Both the position numbers and the translations under genes were made by a program. 30,709 nt of DNA, taken from the IMG/VR virus record IMGVR_UViG_3300025809_000078, positions 1 to 30,709 of that record. The stretch is one strand, 5' to 3'. This DNA comes from a virus. Below, in pieces: positions 569 to 30,419 of this stretch (its first letter is position 1; each line of letters opens with the position of its first letter). The notes under the pieces were generated by a model, which was not told the origin of the DNA, did no database searches, and saw only the letters and a program-made list of their open reading frames with translations.

Positions 569-590
569 AAATGTAACACTTTATAAAATA

Positions 591-598
591 AACGTTTA
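591..598 (+). promoter_or_regulatory. AACGTTTA box six bases before an ATG
   Basis: AACGTTTA ends exactly six bases (TTGAAT) before ATG 605. The same box, as TACGTTTA, stands six bases before the ATGs at 2893, 19968 and 28305. It resembles the Bacteroidota -7 element TAnnTTTG with the last base changed. A TTG 23 bases upstream is a loose -33 candidate. If it is a promoter, the mRNA would begin at or next to the start codon. Confidence 0.4.
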
Positions 599-604
599 TT
601 GAAT

Positions 605-1153
605 ATGGAAAAAACTGTAATTAACAAAATCAAGACGCTCCTCAAAATGGAAATCCAGCTTGAGCGAATGACACTTGAAAATGGAACTGTGATCGAAGCG
701 GATGCTTTCGAGACAGGGGCATCAGTTTTCATCGTTACGGAAGATGGTCAAGTTCCGCTTCCAATCGGTGAGTACGAATTGCCAGAATCTATGAAGTTGA
801 TTGTCGCTGAAGACGGCGTAATCAGCGAAGTCAAAGCGATGGAAGAAGAAGCCGTTGCTGAAGAAGAGGCTGTTGAAACTTCAGAGGTTGAAGTTGAGGC
901 AAGCGAAGAGCCAAGTTATGTTACGAAGGAAGACTTCGAAGCTGCTATTGGTGAGATAAAGTCGATGCTTTCTGCGACACAAAAAGAAGAAGTAAAAGAA
1001 GAGGTTGCTCTATCGTCTGACGATATGCCAGCAGCAAAGGCAATCAAGCCGAATCCTGAAAAGGAATCAAAGAAATCATTCAAGTTTAATTCAACAAAGT
1101 TCGGAACGACTGAAACCAGAGTTTTGAGCAAAATAGCTAAAATCCAAAAATAA
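605..1153 (+). CDS. Scaffold-like head assembly protein
   Basis: The 182-residue product lies directly before the major capsid gene, the usual place of a scaffold. It starts at ATG 605, after an AACGTTTA box; a TTG at 599 is an unlikely alternative. The N-terminal ~75 residues form a compact part with alternating charged and hydrophobic residues (ENGTVIEADAFETGASVF). Then comes a strongly acidic Glu/Val/Ala stretch (about residues 80-105), a probable helix (YVTKEDFEAAIGEIKSMLSA) and a basic Lys/Ser-rich tail. An acidic coil followed by a basic C-terminus that could bind capsid protein is typical of scaffolds. I did not recognise a catalytic motif; the maturation protease is probably the XkdF-like gene at 28305. 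The role is inferred from position and composition. Confidence 0.6.
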   Translation: MEKTVINKIKTLLKMEIQLERMTLENGTVIEADAFETGASVFIVTEDGQVPLPIGEYELPESMKLIVAEDGVISEVKAMEEEAVAEEEAVETSEVEVEASEEPSYVTKEDFEAAIGEIKSMLSATQKEEVKEEVALSSDDMPAAKAIKPNPEKESKKSFKFNSTKFGTTETRVLSKIAKIQK

Positions 1154-2850: not shown

Positions 2851-2886
2851 TTTTTTGTTTGAAACAAAATCTGAGTTTTACGTTTA
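2851..2886 (+). promoter_or_regulatory. Promoter-like element TTTTTTG-N21-TACGTTTA
   Basis: TTTTTTG at 2851-2857 and TACGTTTA at 2879-2886 are 21 bases apart, and the box ends six bases before ATG 2893. The arrangement matches the Bacteroidota -33/-7 layout except for the final A of the -7 element. The same spacing and box recur at 28265-28298. It follows a terminator and a tandem palindrome, so a fresh transcription start here is sensible. Confidence 0.55.
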
Positions 2887-2892
2887 TAGTGT

Positions 2893-3237
2893 ATGGTAAT
2901 TTTAACCACATCAGCAGCATCGCAGACCTTCACGATCATTCCTAGATTTGAACCGACGGGAAATGTAGACGTCACGTTTACAAGTGAGCAGCAGAATAAG
3001 CTGACACACACATTCAACCTTGCAGCTACATATTTGAACGGCTACTTGACGATAACAAACACATTTTCTCCGCTTCTGGTGGACGCGCAGAATTACATCA
3101 TCGAAGTAATGGACGGCTCTGAACTTTGCTTTCGCGGAAAGTCCTTTATTACCGATCAAACCGACTTTCCTAAATTTAGCATCAACGAAGATGTGTTCAC
3201 AGGACAGCCATCTAACAACGAATTCGTAATCATATGA
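2893..3237 (+). CDS. Hypothetical virion-region protein, 114 aa
   Basis: ATG 2893 is six bases after the TACGTTTA box, and the stop overlaps the portal ATG (ATGA, 3234-3237), so it is the first gene of the portal operon. The product is almost all beta-forming (TFTIIPRFEPTGNVDVTFTS, then YLNGYLTITNTFSPLLVDAQ) and ends with an acidic/Phe-rich segment (FPKFSINEDVFTGQPSNNEF). Proteins of this size and type precede portal genes in several Bacteroidota phages, with no assigned function that I know. It could be a small head decoration or connector-associated protein; that is inference from position. Confidence 0.65.
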   Translation: MVILTTSAASQTFTIIPRFEPTGNVDVTFTSEQQNKLTHTFNLAATYLNGYLTITNTFSPLLVDAQNYIIEVMDGSELCFRGKSFITDQTDFPKFSINEDVFTGQPSNNEFVII

Positions 3238-4970
3238 GCAGTAACATCAGCTTAGTAGAGTTAGGCAAGTACACAACGCCTCAGATTAGCGAGGACAAGC
3301 GCGAGAAGTTCGTTGCTTACGGCGCAGATAACAACTATTATCAGACGTTGATTGACGCAAAAGAATCACCAACCAACAGCGCGTTAATCAATGGCATAGC
3401 GGATATGATTTACGGGCGTGGATTATATGCTACAAACGCCGCTCGCAAGCCTGACGAGTACGCAATGATGGTGCAGCTATTCACAGAAGACTGTATGCGG
3501 AAAATCTGTGATGATTTTTACACATTTGGTCAGGCAGCATACCAAGTTATTTATGATACTTCTCACACCAAAGTAATGGAGGTGGCGCATATGCCTATTC
3601 AGAACCTTCGTCCTGAGAAGATGAACGATGAGGGCTATATTGAGGCTTACTATTATTGTGACGATTGGGCCAACGCGAGGCGCAATGATGAGCATCAAAG
3701 AATACCTTGCTTTGGGAAATCAAAAGAAGGTCTTGAGGTTATGGTGATAAAGCCGTACAAAGCAGGATTCCATTATTTTTCCCCTGTCGAATATCAAAGC
3801 GGATTAGATTATGCATTCGTTGAAATTGAACTTGCGAAATTCCACCTAAACAACATCTACAATAGATTTTCTTCAAATCTCATACTCAATTTTAATAACG
3901 GAGTGCCTGAAGAAGATCAGCAGCGGATGATCGAAACCAAGATAAAAGACAAGTTCACAGGCACAGAAGGAGATAGCGTAATCGTTGCTTTTAACGACAG
4001 TCAAGAAACTGCCGCAAGCATAGAATCGATAAGTTTACCAGACGCACATAATCAATACCAATTTATCGCGGAAGAAGCAAGTAGGAAAATAATGGTATCG
4101 CATCGCGTAGTTTCACCTTTGCTTTTTGGGTTGCCGCACAACGGCGGACTAGGATCAAACGCAGACGAAATTAAAATGGCCGCTTTGCTATTTGACAACA
4201 CGGTGATTAAGCCAATGCAGCGAGTAATCATTGAATCCGTTAACGCGATTCTATCTTTCAACGGAGCAAGCCTAAACACTTTCTTCTTAACTAGCCAGCC
4301 GCTTGAGTTCAGCGAGATGGAAATCGAAGAAGTAGATGTTGATACAGCGCAAGAAAAGACAGGTATTGAATTGTCAAAAGACAACCTTGACGAAGTAGCT
4401 GAACTACTCATTGAAAAAGGCGAAGAACTTGGCGATGGCTGGGAATTGATAGAAGAGAGCGAAGTTGATTATGACGAAGACGAGAAAGAGCCTAACCTAT
4501 TATCTAAGGTCTACAACTTTGTCAGCACAGGAACGGCAAGACCAAACGCAAAGAGCGAGCAAGATAGAGTGATTGATGGAGTTGCATACAAGACGCGATA
4601 CGTTTACGCACCTAACGCGGTTCAAGCCAACAGCAGACCTTTTTGCAAGAAGATGGTTGCAGCAAATAAACTATACAGAAAGGAAGATATCATTGCAATG
4701 GGAGATAAAGCAGTCAACGCAGGTTGGGGATTGAATGGTGCTTCAACTTATTCGATTTGGAAATGGAAAGGCGGTGGTGCTTGTCATCACAAATGGATGC
4801 GCAGAGTATTCCGCAAGCCCGTAATTGATGGGAACATCGACACAAAAAGTCCACTTGCACCAACTGTAAGCACTAATAAAAGCGAAAAAGAAGGTTATCG
4901 AGTTCGTAATCCAAAAGAGGTTGCTATGCGACCAATAGACAGAGGTGATAAAGGCTTCGTAAACAAGTAA
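3234..4970 (+). CDS. Portal protein with a C-terminal Cys/His domain
   Basis: At 578 residues this is the best portal candidate. The N-terminal ~370 residues carry portal-like features: ISEDKREKFVAYGADNNYY, then NSALINGIADMIYGRGL, FYTFGQAAYQVIYD, HMPIQNLRPEKM, and a long helix around EEASRKIMVSHRVVSPLLFG. Portals form the 12-subunit ring through which DNA enters the head. After an acidic linker (about 370-420), residues ~440-530 form a separate domain, RPFCKKMVAANKLYRKEDI, then WKWKGGGACHHKW, with Cys and His that might bind a metal. That part resembles C-terminal modules of phage head minor proteins. It overlaps the preceding gene by 4 bases and is followed by the connector gene. Confidence 0.8.
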   Translation: MSSNISLVELGKYTTPQISEDKREKFVAYGADNNYYQTLIDAKESPTNSALINGIADMIYGRGLYATNAARKPDEYAMMVQLFTEDCMRKICDDFYTFGQAAYQVIYDTSHTKVMEVAHMPIQNLRPEKMNDEGYIEAYYYCDDWANARRNDEHQRIPCFGKSKEGLEVMVIKPYKAGFHYFSPVEYQSGLDYAFVEIELAKFHLNNIYNRFSSNLILNFNNGVPEEDQQRMIETKIKDKFTGTEGDSVIVAFNDSQETAASIESISLPDAHNQYQFIAEEASRKIMVSHRVVSPLLFGLPHNGGLGSNADEIKMAALLFDNTVIKPMQRVIIESVNAILSFNGASLNTFFLTSQPLEFSEMEIEEVDVDTAQEKTGIELSKDNLDEVAELLIEKGEELGDGWELIEESEVDYDEDEKEPNLLSKVYNFVSTGTARPNAKSEQDRVIDGVAYKTRYVYAPNAVQANSRPFCKKMVAANKLYRKEDIIAMGDKAVNAGWGLNGASTYSIWKWKGGGACHHKWMRRVFRKPVIDGNIDTKSPLAPTVSTNKSEKEGYRVRNPKEVAMRPIDRGDKGFVNK

Positions 4971-8087: not shown

Positions 8088-8118
8088 TTTGGTTTATTAA
8101 CATTTTATGTTATATTTG
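8088..8118 (+). promoter_or_regulatory. Bacteroidota-type early promoter
   Basis: TTTG (8088-8091), a 19-base spacer, and TATATTTG (8111-8118) match the Bacteroidota housekeeping consensus TTTG-N19/21-TAnnTTTG exactly. It lies just after a terminator and opens the replication operon, so it is likely an early promoter read by host RNA polymerase. Transcription should start within a few bases of 8123-8126. Confidence 0.8.
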
Positions 8119-13320: not shown

Positions 13321-14245
13321 ACGAGGACTTGACACAGCTTGGCCAAACGCCAACGAATACATCAGCCTGAAAAAAGGTTATCCCATAATGATAGCAGGTG
13401 TAGGCGGCGCAGGAAAGACAGAGTTTACATTTGACCTTATTTTGAACGCATCGCTAATGCACGGCTGGAGGTGGTTGATACTCTCGCCCGAAACAGGCGA
13501 CAAATATGAGATCATTGAAATGATGGTTGAGAAACTTGCGGCAGGTGAAACGCTGGAACACGACAGCGAAAATCCAATGTCGGAAGACCGACTTGATAAG
13601 ATTATGTTTTGGCTCAACCAGCACTTTCGAATCCTTGATCCAACTGAGCATTGGAAGGAGAACTTAAACGATCTTCAAATGAATATCACCAACTTCTTCG
13701 ATGCAGTCAACTACGAAGAGAATCGATTAGGCGGCCAATTTGACGGCGTTCTAATTGATCCATTTAACGAACTAGACATCGAAATCGGCGGCAGCAAAAC
13801 AGCCAACATCGTAAAGAACGAACTTGATGTGTTAATTGCTTGGACAAAGAAAAAGAACTATCTGACGATACTAACAAATCACGCAAACGACAAGCAAGAA
13901 ATCCGCGAAAAAGATGATGACGGAGAATGGTATCTATGGACGCCACCAAACAAAAAGGACGAATGGGCATATGGTCAGCAGTTCGGACGTAAGGGATATC
14001 AGATGATATTACTTTATGAGCCGCATCAAACAAAGCAAGTGCAGATGGCAAACGCAGGAGATAAAGAAATGGAACACAGCGTTCAGAATTATTACAACGT
14101 TAGAGATGTTTACGTCCAAAAGACGAAGCCTAAGGGAGTTGGTAAGACAGGTAAGTTTCGATTGTTTTACGACAGAAAGCAACAGCGTTATTACAACATA
14201 GATTCGCTTGGAATGAAAGAAGGATTAATTCAAATTAAGAAATGA
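13247..14245 (+). CDS. RecA-fold replicative helicase/ATPase (DnaB-like)
   Basis: ATG 13247 gives 332 residues; ATG 13259 is an alternative. After a leader of ~40 residues comes the Walker A motif GVGGAGKT (51-58), a SPETG segment (RWLILSPETGDKYEIIEM) like the 'SLEM' region of DnaB helicases, and Walker B FDGVLIDPF with D171. Later segments (LTILTNHAND, WAYGQQFGRKGYQMILLYEP) correspond to sensor and DNA-binding parts of RecA/DnaB-type ATPases. It most likely unwinds DNA at the fork, loaded by the replisome organiser. It overlaps the upstream gene by 74 bases and the next by 4 (ATGA). Confidence 0.8.
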   Translation: MNKAMTTAPLQVLTEIKQRRITNRKRGLDTAWPNANEYISLKKGYPIMIAGVGGAGKTEFTFDLILNASLMHGWRWLILSPETGDKYEIIEMMVEKLAAGETLEHDSENPMSEDRLDKIMFWLNQHFRILDPTEHWKENLNDLQMNITNFFDAVNYEENRLGGQFDGVLIDPFNELDIEIGGSKTANIVKNELDVLIAWTKKKNYLTILTNHANDKQEIREKDDDGEWYLWTPPNKKDEWAYGQQFGRKGYQMILLYEPHQTKQVQMANAGDKEMEHSVQNYYNVRDVYVQKTKPKGVGKTGKFRLFYDRKQQRYYNIDSLGMKEGLIQIKK

Positions 14246-15078
14246 AGACAGTCAACAGTTTAAGCGGTGGTAAAACATCAAGTTACATTGCTGCTAATTA
14301 CCCAGCAGATTACAATGTGTTTAGTTTAGTGAGAACTGATGATAAAAATTGTTTATTTCCCGACTCCAAGATAAGGCAAGAAGTATCTGATCGATTAGGC
14401 ACAGAGTTTATAGGAACGCTGGAAGAAGATATGATTATCTATACAATGCTCGATTTGGAGCAGTTTATAGGTTCAAAAATAGATTGGGTAACAGGTAAGA
14501 CGTTTGATAAGATAATTGACAAAAAAGGAGGTTATCTGCCCAACAAGATAGCAAGGTATTGCACGACTGAACTGAAGACAATGCCTATAATATATTGGAT
14601 GTATGACATAATCAAAGAACCTGTTATTATGCGTTTTGGATATCGAGCCAACGAAACAAGGAGAGCAGTTAAGATGATGGAGAAAACAGACGATGAAGGA
14701 TTTACAAAGGTTAAAGCTACATTTACAACCTTAAAAGATGGTCGGAATTCGTGGGCAGAATATCGTTATTGCAAACCTGAGTTTCCTTTAATAACCGACA
14801 ATATATATAAAGATACTATCGAAGAGTTTTGGAAGGGTAATGATGTTAGATTTGCTTATATGAATAACTGCGTAGGCTGCTGGTGGCGAAGTCCATTACT
14901 TCTAAAAAAGATGAGCGATAAGCATCCAAATAAAATGCAATGGTTTGCAGACAAAGAAACTGATAAAAGCAAATGGAGAAGTGACATTCGTTATAAAGAT
15001 ATTCTGAAATGGAAATCACAAATAGAATTATTTGATGATGATTTTAACGAGTGCGATAGCGGCAGTTGCGGATTATAA
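14242..15078 (+). CDS. PP-loop ATPase, PAPS reductase-like enzyme
   Basis: The 278-residue protein starts with an N-type ATP pyrophosphatase loop, LSGGKTSSYIA (SGGKTSS at 8-14). This fold adenylates substrates and includes PAPS reductases, TilS, and DndC/SspD-like phosphorothioation proteins. It has a conserved RYCTTELK (Cys107), then a NNCVGCWWRSPLL pair (Cys210, Cys213), and a C-terminal CDSGSCGL. Several cysteines could hold an iron-sulfur cluster or act as sulfur carriers. In a phage such an enzyme may help modify DNA bases, sulfur or cofactors; the substrate cannot be told. It is coupled to the helicase gene (ATGA) and is A+T-richer than it. Confidence 0.8.
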   Translation: MKTVNSLSGGKTSSYIAANYPADYNVFSLVRTDDKNCLFPDSKIRQEVSDRLGTEFIGTLEEDMIIYTMLDLEQFIGSKIDWVTGKTFDKIIDKKGGYLPNKIARYCTTELKTMPIIYWMYDIIKEPVIMRFGYRANETRRAVKMMEKTDDEGFTKVKATFTTLKDGRNSWAEYRYCKPEFPLITDNIYKDTIEEFWKGNDVRFAYMNNCVGCWWRSPLLLKKMSDKHPNKMQWFADKETDKSKWRSDIRYKDILKWKSQIELFDDDFNECDSGSCGL

Positions 15079-15563: not shown

Positions 15564-15729
15564 TTTTTTTCGTAGTATTGCCAAAATGATAGTTTCAATT
15601 GGACTTATATACGGCTTAATTTTCGGCGTTAATTACTTTCACTTTGAAACGGACGAGGGATTTAGGGCCACCTTTCAAATATTTATTGGCGTTATTTCAA
15701 TCGAAATGACTTGGAATGAACTTACTTGA
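15502..15729 (+). CDS. Small membrane protein, two predicted membrane segments
   Basis: From ATG 15502 the product has 75 residues; ATG 15586 would give 47 residues and avoid the overlap with the preceding small ORF. Two hydrophobic segments are seen (MIVSIGLIYGLIFGVNYF and FQIFIGVISIEMTW). Both starts keep these, so the protein is membrane-bound either way. The stop overlaps the sigma factor start by 14 bases, so it may be coupled to it. No family recognised. Confidence 0.5.
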   Translation: MNRQRFEITPLKYCATQLSNDFFRSIAKMIVSIGLIYGLIFGVNYFHFETDEGFRATFQIFIGVISIEMTWNELT

Positions 15730-16237
15730 TATTCCATACACAACCAGCCGCCATAACGATTGGATTGTAATGGCAAAAAATCTAGGTGCTGGACATTATT
15801 CGGAAGACATTGTTCAGGAAATGTATATAAAGCTGTCTCAAATCAAGGATCCTGAACGGATTATTGATAAAGAAAATCCAAATCAAATCGTTGGTTTTTA
15901 CGTTTATACAATAATTCGCAGCCTTATAGTTGACCTTCAGCGCATACAGAAAAGAACTCAGATGGTTTCAATCGAATCAATTCAAGCATTGAAAGCGTCA
16001 GATATTGACCTTGAATTTGAATTAGAATACGCCAAGAAATTGGAGGTGATCGATCAAGCAAAAGACCAAATGAATTGGTATGACCTGAAGCTTTTTGAAC
16101 TGTATCACGACGAAGACCTGTCGATTAGAAAACTCGCCAAAGAAACGCGCATCAGCGCATCTTCAATATTTAACACTTTGAGAAATGCCAAGAGCAAAAT
16201 CAACGAAGCCTACAAGGAAAAGAAAAGCACCGAGTAA
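15716..16237 (+). CDS. Phage sigma-70-family (ECF-like) RNA polymerase sigma factor
   Basis: The 173-residue product has the two-domain layout of short sigma factors. Region 2 spans about residues 10-80 (HYSEDIVQEMYIKLSQIKD, then GFYVYTIIRSLIVDLQRIQK), with aromatic/basic residues where the -10 element is recognised. Region 4 is a C-terminal helix-turn-helix (~115-165, DEDLSIRKLAKETRISASSI, FNTLRNAKSKINEAY). It would redirect host polymerase to phage promoters. Its position between the early/replication genes and the packaging/structural genes suits a middle-to-late switch. The ACGTTTA box before structural genes is a candidate target. It overlaps the next gene by 53 bases. Confidence 0.75.
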   Translation: MNLLDIPYTTSRHNDWIVMAKNLGAGHYSEDIVQEMYIKLSQIKDPERIIDKENPNQIVGFYVYTIIRSLIVDLQRIQKRTQMVSIESIQALKASDIDLEFELEYAKKLEVIDQAKDQMNWYDLKLFELYHDEDLSIRKLAKETRISASSIFNTLRNAKSKINEAYKEKKSTE

Positions 16238-16613
16238 AGGACTTGGTGACACGATTGAAAAGATAACTGAAGCCACAGGAATTAAGAAGGCGGTCAAATG
16301 GCTTGCTGGTGAGGACTGCGGATGTGACGCTCGAAAGGAAAAGCTGAATGAGATGTTTCCAAACGATCGGCATAAGCCAACTAAGTGTATGTCCGAAGGG
16401 CAATATAACCAATGGACAAAATTGAAGGATATCACCAAGCAGGATAAGAATCGATACTTGACTGAGGTCTACCCAGCGATTGCTCAGATTCACGCTGTCG
16501 TTTTTGGTCATAGATATCACGAGCCTTGCACTTGCACACCAAGACAATGGGAGCAATGGCGAAACGATTTAGATCAAGTTTATTCAACATACGAAGCAGA
16601 TGCAAAAAGTTAA
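16185..16613 (+). CDS. Conserved phage protein with Cys pairs, 142 aa
   Basis: After a basic Lys/Arg-rich start (PRAKSTKPTRKRKAPSKG), the product has GLGDTIEKITEATGIKKAV, then WLAGEDCGCDARKEKLNEMF, and a later Cys pair with His (HRYHEPCTCTPRQWEQW). Two CxC pairs plus histidines could bind zinc. I recall the 'GLGDTIEKIT...GEDCGCD' pattern from flavobacterial phages, near terminase genes, without known function. It overlaps the sigma gene by 53 bases and the ParB-like gene by 14. It could be a DNA-binding packaging or regulatory factor. Confidence 0.65.
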   Translation: MPRAKSTKPTRKRKAPSKGLGDTIEKITEATGIKKAVKWLAGEDCGCDARKEKLNEMFPNDRHKPTKCMSEGQYNQWTKLKDITKQDKNRYLTEVYPAIAQIHAVVFGHRYHEPCTCTPRQWEQWRNDLDQVYSTYEADAKS

Positions 16614-17202
16614 GATAGCAGAAGTCAAGACCAATCCGAATAATCCGCGATTGATAAAGGATGACAAGTTTAAGAAGCTGGTCAAGTCAATAAAAGAGTT
16701 CCCTCAGATGCTTGAGTTGCGCCCGATTGTAGTCAACGATGATATGATTGTTCTTGGCGGCAATATGCGTTTAAAGGCTTGCAAGGAAGCAGGATTAAAA
16801 GAAGTGCCTATCATAAAGGCAAGCGATTTAACTGACGAGCAACAGAACGAGTTCATAGTAAAAGACAATGTAGGTTTCGGAGAATGGGATTGGGATGTGT
16901 TGGCAAACGAATGGGATGTAGTTCAACTTGAGGATTGGGGATTAGATGGTTTTCCTTTTGAGGATAACATTAATTTAAGCGATGAGTTTGGTGAAGATTT
17001 CAATTTAAAAGATGGAGACAAAGAACCATTTCAACAAATGACCTTTACTCTTGCAGATGAACAAGTTGAGCAGATTAAAAACGCAATAGCGGATATAAAG
17101 CAAACAGAAGAGTATAAGTACTGCGAAACAATGGGCAACGAGAATAGTAACGGCAACTCTTTATATTTAATAGTAATGCAATGGGCAGAGCAAAGGAGAT
17201 AA
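16600..17202 (+). CDS. ParB-like (sulfiredoxin-fold) protein
   Basis: The 200-residue product begins KVKIAEVKTNPNNPRLIKDD, then LRPIVVNDDMIVLGGNMRLK and ACKEAGLKEVPIIKASDL, the N-terminal pattern of ParB/Spo0J-type domains (a fold now known to bind CTP in ParB). No helix-turn-helix or methyltransferase follows; the C-terminal half is acidic and ends in LYLIVMQWAEQRR. In phages such proteins often sit beside DNA modification or terminase genes. The composition turns A+T-richer at about 16,980, within the C-terminal half. It overlaps the Mom-like gene by 22 bases. Confidence 0.75.
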   Translation: MQKVKIAEVKTNPNNPRLIKDDKFKKLVKSIKEFPQMLELRPIVVNDDMIVLGGNMRLKACKEAGLKEVPIIKASDLTDEQQNEFIVKDNVGFGEWDWDVLANEWDVVQLEDWGLDGFPFEDNINLSDEFGEDFNLKDGDKEPFQQMTFTLADEQVEQIKNAIADIKQTEEYKYCETMGNENSNGNSLYLIVMQWAEQRR

Positions 17203-17879
17203 TAGTAAAGGTAATACCGAGTAAGATTGCTAATGCTTTTGTAAAGAAACATCACTATTCTGAAAAGGTTGTAAATATGAGTAGTCTGCACTTTGGATGC
17301 TTTCTGAATCAGCAACTGCACGGAGTTATGAGTTATGGAAGCCCAATGGATAAAAGAAACGTTCTTCCTTTGGTTGATTCTGGGGAAACAGATATAAACA
17401 AAAGATGGAATGAGATGCTGGAGTTGAATAGAATGGCTTTTGATGACTATCTTCCAAAGTATTCAGAAAGTAGATGTATAGCAATCAGTATAAGATTGAT
17501 TAAGAAAAACGCACCACAAATTAAATGGATATTAAGCTACTCTGACGCTACTCAATGCGGAGACGGAACAATATACAGGGCAAGCGGATTTAAGCTTACA
17601 CAAATAAATAAAAACGGAACTATTTATAAGTTAGCTAATGGAGACGTAGTAGCAAAAAGAGGTGATAGTAAATACAATTTTACTGGTGCAACTGCATTAA
17701 AAGGTTTTCAAAACAGATATATTTACTTAATAGATAAGTCTTGTGCATTAACAGTACAAGACATACCATTTAGTGAAATAGACAAAAAAGGTGCAGGAAT
17801 GTATAAAGGAAAAAAAATAACCCTCCAAGAGAGGAGGGCTAATTTGAGCGAGAAGGTCGATTCGAACGCCACCTCTTAA
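17181..17879 (+). CDS. Mom-like DNA adenine modification enzyme (GNAT-related)
   Basis: The 232-residue protein matches the Mom pattern: FVKKHHYSEKVV (H25-Y26), SLHFGCFLNQQLHGVMSYGS, and ILSYSDATQCGDGTIYRASG (S119, D122, Y132). Phage Mu Mom (231 residues) converts adenine to a carbamoylmethyl form that blocks restriction; its HY, Ser, Asp and Tyr active residues have plausible counterparts here. It probably modifies phage DNA before packaging, as the terminase genes follow directly. The gene is A+T-rich. The last ~26 codons are odd: they run through the antisense terminator and tRNA-like gene. Losing one A from the run at 17811-17817 would stop translation after MYKGKK. Confidence 0.75.
   Translation: MGRAKEIIVKVIPSKIANAFVKKHHYSEKVVNMSSLHFGCFLNQQLHGVMSYGSPMDKRNVLPLVDSGETDINKRWNEMLELNRMAFDDYLPKYSESRCIAISIRLIKKNAPQIKWILSYSDATQCGDGTIYRASGFKLTQINKNGTIYKLANGDVVAKRGDSKYNFTGATALKGFQNRYIYLIDKSCALTVQDIPFSEIDKKGAGMYKGKKITLQERRANLSEKVDSNATS
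17810..17838 (-). terminator. Intrinsic terminator of the minus-strand tRNA-like gene
   Basis: Read on the minus strand, a perfect CCCTCC/GGAGGG stem (17821-17826 with 17833-17838) with a six-base loop is followed by TTATTTTTTT. There is no T tract on the + side, so this serves minus-strand transcription, 9 bases after the tRNA-like 3' end. Confidence 0.8.
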
Positions 17880-19930: not shown

Positions 19931-19953
19931 CCTGAGGTACAAATCAAACCAAA

Positions 19954-19961
19954 TACGTTTA
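19954..19961 (+). promoter_or_regulatory. TACGTTTA box six bases before ATG 19968
   Basis: TACGTTTA is followed by TTCATT and then the ATG of the tail chaperone gene. Box and spacing are the same as before 2893 and 28305. No TTTG lies at the expected -33 distance here, so if it is a promoter it depends on other contacts or on an activator. An A/C-rich run, AAATCAAACCAAA, precedes it, similar to that before 28291. Confidence 0.4.
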
Positions 19962-19967
19962 TTCATT

Positions 19968-20663
19968 ATGAAAGTCAAATTTCAAGTTCCAGCCAGCCTT
20001 GCAGATATTCCTTTAAAGGACTATATCTCGTATCAAAAGATACTAGAAGCAAACAAAGGTGCAGAGGATAGCGAGTTCGTAACGATGAAGATGGTCAGCA
20101 TATTCTGCAATGTCAGTTATGACGAACTGCAAAAACTTAGCCTGACGCAATACGATGTTGTGGTTCAGATGCTGCAAGATGTGTTCGGTGAGAAGCCAAC
20201 ATTCAGAAACAAAATTAAGATTGGTGACACAGAGTTTGGATTCATTCCGAAGCTGGATGACATCAGCTTGGGTGAGTATGTAGACCTTGAGAACTATATG
20301 AAGTCACCAACTACCTATCACAAGGCAATGGCTGTTCTTTACAGACCTATCACGCTTAAGGTAAAGGAAACCTATCTGATCGAAGATTACGAGGGATCAG
20401 ATAAATACGCTGAGTTCTTCCTTGATTGCGATTTAGAAACGGCACTTGGTGCAATGCTTTTTTTTTGGAATTTAGGAAGCGAGTTGTTAATCAGTATGAA
20501 GGACTCTTTTCGGGAGGAATTGACGACAACGAACACGGAGAGCGATCACAATTTGGACAACGATGGGGATGGTATCAATCAATCGTTCATCTCGCAGATG
20601 GAAACATCCTTAGAATTAATGAAGTCACAAAGCTGGATCTCCATCAATGTCTGCTTAAACTGA
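19968..20663 (+). CDS. Tail assembly chaperone (G-like), frame 0 product
   Basis: The 231-residue product begins KVKFQVPASLADIPLKDYIS, followed by helical parts (VTMKMVSIFCNVSYDELQKL) and the segment ETALGAMLFFWNLGSELLIS common in Bacteroidota phage tail chaperones. It lies upstream of the tail completion and tape measure genes, as in lambda G/GT. A T9 run at 20458-20466 within ALGAMLFF allows a -1 shift into the frame of 20426-20722. After the run both frames stay open for ~200 bases and both look protein-like. The frame 0 end is NDGDGINQSFISQMETSL followed by ELMKSQSWISINVCLN. It would guide tail tube polymerisation on the tape measure. Confidence 0.7.
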   Translation: MKVKFQVPASLADIPLKDYISYQKILEANKGAEDSEFVTMKMVSIFCNVSYDELQKLSLTQYDVVVQMLQDVFGEKPTFRNKIKIGDTEFGFIPKLDDISLGEYVDLENYMKSPTTYHKAMAVLYRPITLKVKETYLIEDYEGSDKYAEFFLDCDLETALGAMLFFWNLGSELLISMKDSFREELTTTNTESDHNLDNDGDGINQSFISQMETSLELMKSQSWISINVCLN

Positions 20664-28270: not shown

Positions 28271-28298
28271 TAAAAACAAAACCAAAAAATTACGTTTA
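28265..28298 (+). promoter_or_regulatory. Promoter-like element TTTTG-N21-TACGTTTA
   Basis: TTTTG (28265-28269), a 21-base spacer and TACGTTTA (28291-28298) precede ATG 28305 by six bases. Spacing and box are the same as at 2851-2886. The -33 part overlaps the tape measure stop codon. It would start a transcript for the protease, fibre and (past the window ends) scaffold and capsid block. Confidence 0.5.
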
Positions 28299-28304
28299 TT
28301 AGCT

Positions 28305-28892
28305 ATGAAGATCATCGAATTAATCCTTGACGAGGACAGTATTGATGCTGGAGTAAACGCTATCAGCATCGTCGAGTCGCCAGCAATTGAATCAGACTTT
28401 ATTGCCTTAAGCAAGGATCAAGAAATCAAGCTGGCAGAAGTGGATCAGCAGAAGCGAATATTGATGGGCGCGGCGCTCATTCCAAATCGAACGATTTTCA
28501 GGAAGAACGGCGATGATGAGTTCTATGTTTACTTTTCAAAAGACACGATCGCAAGGGCATCTCAGTTATTCTTGAAGCAAGGGAATCAAGGCAAAAGTAC
28601 GCTGGAACACGCGATGAAATTAAACGACTTGACGGTTGTAGAATCGTGGATTGTCGACCATTCAGAAAAAGACAAGTCAGCGCACTACGACCTATCTATG
28701 CCCGTTGGCACTTGGATGGTTAGCGTCAAAGTTGACAACGATGAGGTATGGAATGATTTTGTGAAGACAGGAAAGGTTAAAGGTTTCAGCATCGAAGGCT
28801 ACTTCGCCGACAAGACGGAGATGAAAGCGGCAGAGATAAACGAAGAGGATGCTTTAATTGACGCGATAAAAGACATCATTTCCAATGCGTAA
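28305..28892 (+). CDS. XkdF-like prohead maturation protease
   Basis: ATG 28305 gives 195 residues. The N-terminus (KIIELILDEDSIDAGVNAIS, IVESPAIESDF) and core match XkdF-type phage proteases (S78-related): GAALIPNRTIFRKNGDDEFY, then TLEHAMKLND with the likely catalytic His, VVESWIVDHSEKDKS, PVGTWMVSVKVDNDEVWNDF, and KGFSIEGYF with the likely nucleophile Ser. Such proteases clip scaffold and capsid during head maturation. Closing the circle places it upstream of scaffold and capsid, the usual order. It overlaps the next gene by eight bases. Confidence 0.8.
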   Translation: MKIIELILDEDSIDAGVNAISIVESPAIESDFIALSKDQEIKLAEVDQQKRILMGAALIPNRTIFRKNGDDEFYVYFSKDTIARASQLFLKQGNQGKSTLEHAMKLNDLTVVESWIVDHSEKDKSAHYDLSMPVGTWMVSVKVDNDEVWNDFVKTGKVKGFSIEGYFADKTEMKAAEINEEDALIDAIKDIISNA

Positions 28893-29121: not shown

Positions 29122-30419
29122 TGGCAACAGAAAGAGTCGGCATACACAGCTTCGCAGAACTTGAAGCATCTATTGGAAACGCGAAAACAGCAGCCGATGT
29201 TAAAACAGCATACGAAAGCAACGCGAACACGAATGAGTTTAGCGATTCAGAACAGACCAAGCTGCTAGGAGTTGAAGCTGGAGCAGAGGTAAACCCAACG
29301 GATGCGGAGATAAAAACAGCATACGAAAACAATGCAAACACAAACGCGTTTACTGATGCCGAGCAAACCAAGCTGTCAGGTATATCGACAGGCGCGGAGG
29401 TTAACGCTGTTGATTCTGTATTCGGAAGGACAGGAGCAGTAACTGCTCAAAGCGGTGACTATACAAAGTCAGATGTTGGACTTGCAAACGTAGACAACAC
29501 CAGCGATGCGGATAAGCCAATCAGCACGGCAACGCAAACAGCGTTAGATGCAAAGCAAGGAGACATTACCTTAACTACCACAGGCACATCAGGTGCAGCT
29601 ACATTGGTAGGTGACACGCTAAATATTCCAGAATACGCTGGTGGTGGTGGTGGTGGTGTAGACACATTCAACACTTTAACAGGAGACGTAACAATCTCAG
29701 AGGGTACAAACATCACATTCAATACTGTCGGTAATGACATTGAAATTAGCGCATCAGGTGGTGGTGGTAGTGGAACAGTAACTGAAGTGACAACTAACGC
29801 ACCTTTATCGGTTACAAGCGGCACTACAACCCCTGACTTGACAATAACACAAGCAACAACGTCAGTAGATGGGTACTTAACTTCAACTGATTGGAACACA
29901 TTTAACAACGGAGCAGGATTAGCAGCTACGGCAAATCAAGATTCAACAGCGACAATTTTAGCAGGCGATTTAACAGGTCAAGTCAACAGCGTGGCGGTTG
30001 CCACAGTAACATCAGGCGCAGCTTTAGGCGCAACATCAAATCAAGATTCAAACGCTACAATATTAAGCGGAGACCTTACAGGCACAGTTAATTCAGTAGC
30101 AGTTGCCACAGTAACGTCAGGAGCAGCACTTGGAGCAACATCCAATCAAGACTCAACAGCGACCATATTAAGCGGTAATTTAACAGGTCAAGTAAATTCA
30201 GTTGCCGTTGCAACAGTTACAAGTGGCGCGGCATTGGGGGCAACATCAACGCAGCCAAGCGACAACGTTTCAACGCTGACAAATGACGCGGCATATCTAC
30301 CATCTGATCCATCAGCGGTTACGGGAGCAGATGCAATTACCAACATTATGAGTTTGACGCAAGCGGAATATGACGCGATCACAACGCCGAACGCAACGAC
30401 ACTTTATATCATAGCATAG
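29121..30419 (+). CDS. Tail fibre/appendage protein with repeats, 432 aa
   Basis: The protein is built of repeats. Near the N-terminus two ~37-residue units share KTAYExNANTNxFxDxEQTK followed by GAEVN, as in trimeric tail fibres. Next come VFGRTGAVTAQSGDYTKSDV and GLANVDNTSDADKPISTATQ, another known fibre motif. Two Gly runs (AGGGGGGVD, SGGGGSGT) act as flexible joints. Residues ~269-373 hold three nearly identical 35-residue units (TILSGDLTGQVNSVAVATVT). The end, AITTPNATTLYIIA, is typical of phage appendage proteins. It probably forms a trimeric fibre contacting the host surface together with the LamG-like protein, which starts at its stop codon. Confidence 0.75.
   Translation: MATERVGIHSFAELEASIGNAKTAADVKTAYESNANTNEFSDSEQTKLLGVEAGAEVNPTDAEIKTAYENNANTNAFTDAEQTKLSGISTGAEVNAVDSVFGRTGAVTAQSGDYTKSDVGLANVDNTSDADKPISTATQTALDAKQGDITLTTTGTSGAATLVGDTLNIPEYAGGGGGGVDTFNTLTGDVTISEGTNITFNTVGNDIEISASGGGGSGTVTEVTTNAPLSVTSGTTTPDLTITQATTSVDGYLTSTDWNTFNNGAGLAATANQDSTATILAGDLTGQVNSVAVATVTSGAALGATSNQDSNATILSGDLTGTVNSVAVATVTSGAALGATSNQDSTATILSGNLTGQVNSVAVATVTSGAALGATSTQPSDNVSTLTNDAAYLPSDPSAVTGADAITNIMSLTQAEYDAITTPNATTLYIIA
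29925..30239 (+). repeat. Three tandem 105-base coding repeats in the fibre gene
   Basis: Units begin at 29925, 30030 and 30135, each 105 bases (35 codons), encoding A-T-x-N-Q-D-S ... SGAALG. A fourth, diverging copy starts at 30240 (ATSTQPSD). Protein identity is high while many third codon positions differ, so the repeats are under protein-level selection or old, not a recent DNA duplication. Unit number may vary between relatives. Confidence 0.85.

Follow-up and report, generated by a model that had tools for sequence, protein, structure and literature searches.

A predicted ECF sigma factor as the probable reader of a two-part late promoter element in a phage genome from IMG/VR

Phage sigma factors of the ECF type have been described in phiEco32 (gp36) and phage 7-11, in which early genes depend on the host sigma factor and the phage protein then serves the phage's own middle and late promoters (PMC4331800). 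The promoters known for these phage ECF sigma factors have an extended -10 element (core TGATGT in 7-11) without a recognisable -35 element (PMC5333181). In bacteria, the pair AAC (-35) and CGT (-10) is a hallmark of ECF promoters, and the current ECF classification excludes the ECF sigma factors of viral genomes (PMC8103513). More generally, gp55 of T4 and gp28 and gp34 of SPO1 are phage sigma factors that turn the host core polymerase to later genes (PMC9429907).

The locus described here lies in the window, that is, the whole stretch of 30,709 nucleotides that was analysed. As in phiEco32 and 7-11 (Kuravirus type), it has a phage-encoded ECF-type sigma factor that would serve later promoters; unlike the promoters of those phages, its promoter element has both halves clear, a fixed spacing and CGT at -10. 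It also shares with the bacterial ECF sigma factors SigL, sigma-E and EcfG the sigma2 and sigma4 architecture and promoters of the AAC/CGT(T) form. The proteins of T4 and SPO1 belong to other sigma types with other promoter forms. Kinship with gp36 is not apparent: this protein scores 4.5 bits against the profile of the window family (the window protein itself, 202), and blastp aligns the two in region 2 only (E 0.006), which places gp36 outside the family. The first-pass annotation knew of no description of such a pair of sigma factor and promoter for this phage type; a late ECF sigma factor of a phage was in fact already known from phiEco32, and what differs is the form of the promoter. A literature search, mostly without subscription journals, found no description of this promoter class in Bacteroidota phages.

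The window is a nearly complete, circularly permuted genome, since in relatives L161 to L167 its end (30709) continues into its start (1), with a few hundred bases in between. The host is probably a flavobacterium; when GTDB was scanned for copies of the sigma factor in hosts or prophages, only two weak alphaproteobacterial matches (25% identity) came up. Other genes of the window include a PAPS reductase-like gene in the early block (14242-15078, phrog_424) and a gene for a Mom-type DNA modification protein (17181-17879; Pfam Mom E 5e-43, PHROG Mom-like), which adjoins a ParB/methyltransferase-like gene at 16600 and suggests that the phage DNA is modified. Repeats are found within the tail-fibre gene (29905-30244), where a single stretch is matched by several parts of one relative. 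The proposed early promoter and the genes of the sigma locus are the following:

8088-8118, plus strand: predicted early promoter of host type, TTTG-N19-TATATTTG, ahead of the replication genes and of the sigma gene, which lie on the same strand
15716-16237, plus strand: predicted ECF-type sigma factor, 173 aa; sigma2 at about 7-80 (loop 42-59, helix 60-80), linker 81-98, sigma4 at about 99-172
16185-16613, plus strand: Cys-rich protein, 142 aa, with the pattern GLGD...DCGCD.RK.KLN...C...C

A short sigma-70-type protein had been annotated at 15716-16237, and the closer analysis bears this out. The protein scores 47.9 bits against TIGR02937 (sigma70-ECF, NCBIfam; curated cut-off 42.9), a profile that is also matched by 68 of the 68 aligned members of its family, and EDIVQEMY, the signature of region 2, is conserved in the family alignment together with a helix-turn-helix in region 4; the Pfam matches to regions 2 and 4 of the window protein are weak and under the cut-off. 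The AlphaFold2 model (pLDDT 87) consists of two confident helical domains and a short linker of about 18 residues, in keeping with the architecture that defines ECF sigma factors (sigma2 and sigma4 only, with a linker of fewer than 50 residues). The best Foldseek matches of this model in the PDB are the ECF factor SigL (6dv9_F, E 8e-5) and sigma-E (1or7_A), and its region 4, with a recognition helix that starts at residue 148, superposes on the -35-bound region 4 of sigma-E (Z 10.6, 1.9 Å, 69 aa). Taken together, the profile score, the two-domain model and the fold matches to SigL and sigma-E indicate that the 173-aa protein is an ECF (group 4) sigma factor. Unlike SigL, sigma-E and EcfG, it is borne by a phage, its neighbour is not a recognised anti-sigma factor and its own gene lacks the box, no ACA-N13-CGTTTA element having been found upstream of it. 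Positive autoregulation, which is associated with the ECF sigma factors studied early on, and a cotranscribed anti-sigma factor are both optional for membership.

The consensus of the host primary sigma factor is TTTG/TAnnTTTG (PMC7366714), and the early promoter at 8088 fits it, as first annotated: TTTG-N19-TATATTTG is the window's sole strict match of this type, and the close relatives L001 and L003 retain it. The second promoter class, with which the structural operons begin, comprises four sites of the form ACA(A/C)-N13-CGTTTA-N6-ATG:

575-598, plus strand: candidate late promoter P1, AACAC (575-579) and CGTTTA (593-598), ATG 605 after 6 nt
605-1153, plus strand: first gene behind P1, 182 aa, C-terminal half of phrog_24921
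2863-2886, plus strand: candidate late promoter P2, AACAAA (2863-2868) and CGTTTA (2881-2886), ATG 2893 after 6 nt
2893-4970, plus strand: start of the P2 operon, a 114-aa gene followed by the portal gene (3234-4970, phrog_33693)
19939-19961, plus strand: candidate late promoter P3, (T)ACAAA (19939-19943) and CGTTTA (19956-19961), ATG 19968 after 6 nt
19968-20663, plus strand: first gene of the P3 operon, 231 aa, directly behind the terminase/endonuclease block
28275-28298, plus strand: candidate late promoter P4, AACAAA (28275-28280) and CGTTTA (28293-28298), ATG 28305 after 6 nt
28305-28892, plus strand: first gene of the P4 operon, head maturation protease-like, 195 aa

Each of the four sites lies in front of an operon for head, portal or tail. 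The 8-mer TACGTTTA at 2879, 19954 and 28291 stands before late ATGs, as the first-pass annotation had reported for the structural operons; it had overlooked a fourth box, AACGTTTA at 591-598, whose gene is taken to start at ATG 605 in preference to TTG 599 and whose element (P1) is also present in relatives L161, L163 and L164. The protease-like gene behind P4 is shorter (195 aa) than its counterpart in L164, L166, L167 and L088 (315-317 aa), the C-terminal PHROG half of which matches the separate window gene at 605-1153. As a bare motif the 8-mer was rejected, given that it occurs at chance level (35 matches against 30 expected, one mismatch allowed), and its further exact copies at 4599, 6835 and 15899 are all intragenic. 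It is the N6-ATG context that makes the late box non-random: CGTTTA-N6-ATG is seen four times in the window against 0.34 expected, and ACAAA-N12-CGTTTA-N6-ATG three times against none in 300 dinucleotide shuffles.

The upstream half of the element was originally taken to be TTTG with a 21-base spacer. This proposal was abandoned, as TTTG stands at that distance only from the boxes at 2879 and 28291, the other two boxes (19954 and 591) lack it, and close relatives have not retained it; the half common to the four sites is ACA(A/C), 13 nt before CGTT. With AACAAA (twice), TACAAA and AACAC, each followed by CGTTTA, the sites have the AAC and CGT of ECF promoters. Considering that TACGTTTA is one letter away from TAnnTTTG and that TTTG does lie 21 bp upstream at two sites, it could be argued that the host primary sigma factor itself reads the late boxes, the phage sigma factor acting elsewhere. 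We regard this as highly unlikely, for apart from the two sites without TTTG, relatives retain ACA..GTT and lose TA..TTTG (boxes AAGTTATA, GGTTAAC and TATTATA), and boxes that are lineage-specific throughout a genome and associated with the phage sigma factor, as described below, would be unexpected under host recognition unless the sigma factors of the hosts differed in step.

The relatives were collected by four IMG/VR scans (sigma factor, gene 19968, gene 28305 and portal), which gave 318 loci, so the comparative tests all draw on sequences gathered through homology with the window. Among these loci the late element is conserved at a fixed distance upstream of orthologous late genes: GTT lies at exactly -11 from the ATG in 181 cases, as compared with 37-60 at other distances, and GTT at -11 together with an upstream ACA(A/C/T) in 81, as compared with 0-8. 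A weight matrix trained on part of the sites it recovered found 128 of them, and none in reversed sequence. Trained on window-like sites, it detects an element in only 35 of the 76 sigma loci longer than 10 kb, the shortfall being due to the different letters of many lineages or to partial loci. An unfiltered search for k-mers enriched at a fixed distance from the ATG of sigma loci was discarded, since it was dominated by coding homology.

Such a fixed position could also belong to a translation-start signal, either a ribosome or a leader element, particularly as these bacteria seldom use Shine-Dalgarno sites. That reading accounts for a GTT fixed exactly 11 nt from the ATG; it does not account for a second half lying 13-17 nt further upstream with a lineage-specific spacing, for the occurrence of the element at operon starts and not at internal genes, or for box letters that track a sigma factor, and it is considered extremely improbable. 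The element looks, instead, like a promoter with letters of its own in each lineage: CGTTTAT in the window lineage, CGTTATA (with a spacer 3 bases longer), AGTTATA, GGTTAAC, TATTATA and CTATATA in others. Strongly altered boxes (TATTATA, CTATATA) occur in lineages L306, L232 and L283, and among the 50 long contigs it is L306 that has the most divergent sigma factor (E 3e-30). Within a genome the operons agree in 6.88 of 8 letters, in a register-corrected test, as opposed to 5.81 after random reassignment of operons to genomes (the observed value was reached in 0 of 1000 permutations). A box that is the same within a genome and different between lineages implies one trans-acting reader per phage.

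The first-pass annotation had suggested that this reader is the phage sigma factor and that the idea could be judged by the covariation of its residues with the box, and by relatives that keep the box and lack the gene. As regards the latter, among the 50 contigs of 24-43 kb that one or another of the four genes had retrieved, 48 have exactly one copy of the sigma gene. The remaining two are L158 (24 kb) and L122 (28 kb), contigs that may be incomplete; L122 carries the box AGTTATA without a sigma gene in its sequence and is thus a possible exception. As for covariation, among sigma factors less than 70% identical the box has 5.72 of 7 letters in common with the box of the nearest sigma factor, as compared with 4.39 for a random one (0 of 5000 permutations). 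Of all the columns, residue 76 in region 2.4, which by analogy falls in the helix with which sigma factors recognise the upstream portion of the -10 element, is the most associated with the base preceding GTT: C goes with Arg (15 of 17), A with Lys (9 of 13) and T mostly with Asn or Gln. In addition, loop 58-61 associates with the choice of GTT or GTA, and the recognition helix associates with the length of the spacer; the sigma2 and sigma4 columns show no overall difference in box association. Related sequences are not independent, and a tree-aware test of residue 76 reduces the sample to just three supported independent pairs (2.6 agreeing, 0.0 opposing, p 0.25), while the Mantel correlation of whole-sigma distance with box distance is weak (r 0.10, p 0.067; r 0.09, p 0.089 given terminase).

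The sigma factor is accompanied by a Cys-rich gene, a homolog of which is found 0.1-1.2 kb downstream in 136 of 136 sigma loci. This constancy, the presence of the gene in the cultured phage P12024S and the invariance of its Cys pairs raise the question of whether another phage factor such as this neighbour recognises the boxes, or is needed by a sigma factor that alone would be insufficient. The protein has no known domain and no DNA-binding or anti-sigma match in Pfam, its mostly helical model (pLDDT only 72) has no significant match in the PDB, and the element is already of canonical ECF form, all of which makes either possibility very unlikely. Sequence matches of the Cys-rich protein to designed proteins were set aside as uninformative.

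It was through this neighbour that the Nonlabens (Persicivirga) phages P12024S and P12024L (Inhavirus) were reached; of three family sigma factors compared with cultured phages by tblastn, two gave no match and the third a weak one to a faecal contig (E 2e-3). In P12024S, gp33 is recorded as a hypothetical protein with a note on sigma-70 region 2, and no promoters are annotated. This protein is a member of the sigma family (profile E 5e-15) that is only 26% identical to the window sigma factor, and the two share profile kinship, promoter form and gene order, gp33 lying two genes ahead of the same Cys-rich gene (gp35) and just upstream of terminase. Seven gene starts of P12024S (gp01, gp05, gp08, gp35, gp41, gp44 and gp45) carry ACA(A/C)...CGTTA, the late operons having AAAACAAA...CGTTAAT just before the ATG where the window has CGTTTAT; the box CGTTAAT agrees across the operons, and host-type promoters are found at opposite-strand genes.

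The early claim that a phage sigma factor reads a second, late class of promoters is thus favoured by the ECF fold and profile, the element itself, the agreement between boxes, the covariation and P12024S, and the link between sigma factor and late box is well supported by sequence evidence. In all likelihood, as far as sequences and models can tell, the phage ECF sigma factor directs the late operons through ACA(A/C)/CGTTTA promoters once early transcription by the host sigma factor has taken place. From the promoter at 8088 the host primary sigma factor would transcribe the replication block, of which the sigma gene is part, and the phage sigma factor would then join the host core polymerase; judging by fold, position and covariation, its sigma4 helix would read the ACA(A/C) half and sigma2 would read CGTTTA. 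Because the gap to the ATG is 6 nt, the four late operons may start a few bases before the ATG or at it, giving leaderless or nearly leaderless mRNAs. When the switch occurs, whether the late mRNAs start without leaders and whether the Cys-rich partner is required are matters of inference. A sigma factor of its own, of the ECF type, and at least four matching promoters at particle genes mean that the virus can probably redirect the host polymerase late in infection.

The phage ECF sigma factors studied to date are outliers that work without a -35 element, whereas here a broad phage lineage appears to use canonical two-part promoters, with more than 590 relatives of the sigma factor in IMG/VR. 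A wider and more tentative proposal, which we put forward as possible and hold with some doubt, is that a large clade of Bacteroidota phages, almost none of them in culture, expresses its late genes through ECF sigma factors of its own, with a promoter code that changes sigma by sigma, an obligatory Cys-rich partner and leaderless late mRNAs. In a two-gene late switch of this kind the partner would be a co-activator, an anti-sigma factor or an appropriator of the host sigma factor. Leaderless late mRNAs would be of interest in this phylum, which has few short leaders; in B. thetaiotaomicron, 3.7% of the 5' UTRs are under 10 nt (PMC7366714). P12024S and its Nonlabens host form a cultured pair in which the link between sigma factor and promoter is directly testable, the natural covariation of the two could be used to read the specificity code, and late-gene expression could be predicted for hundreds of uncultured phages.
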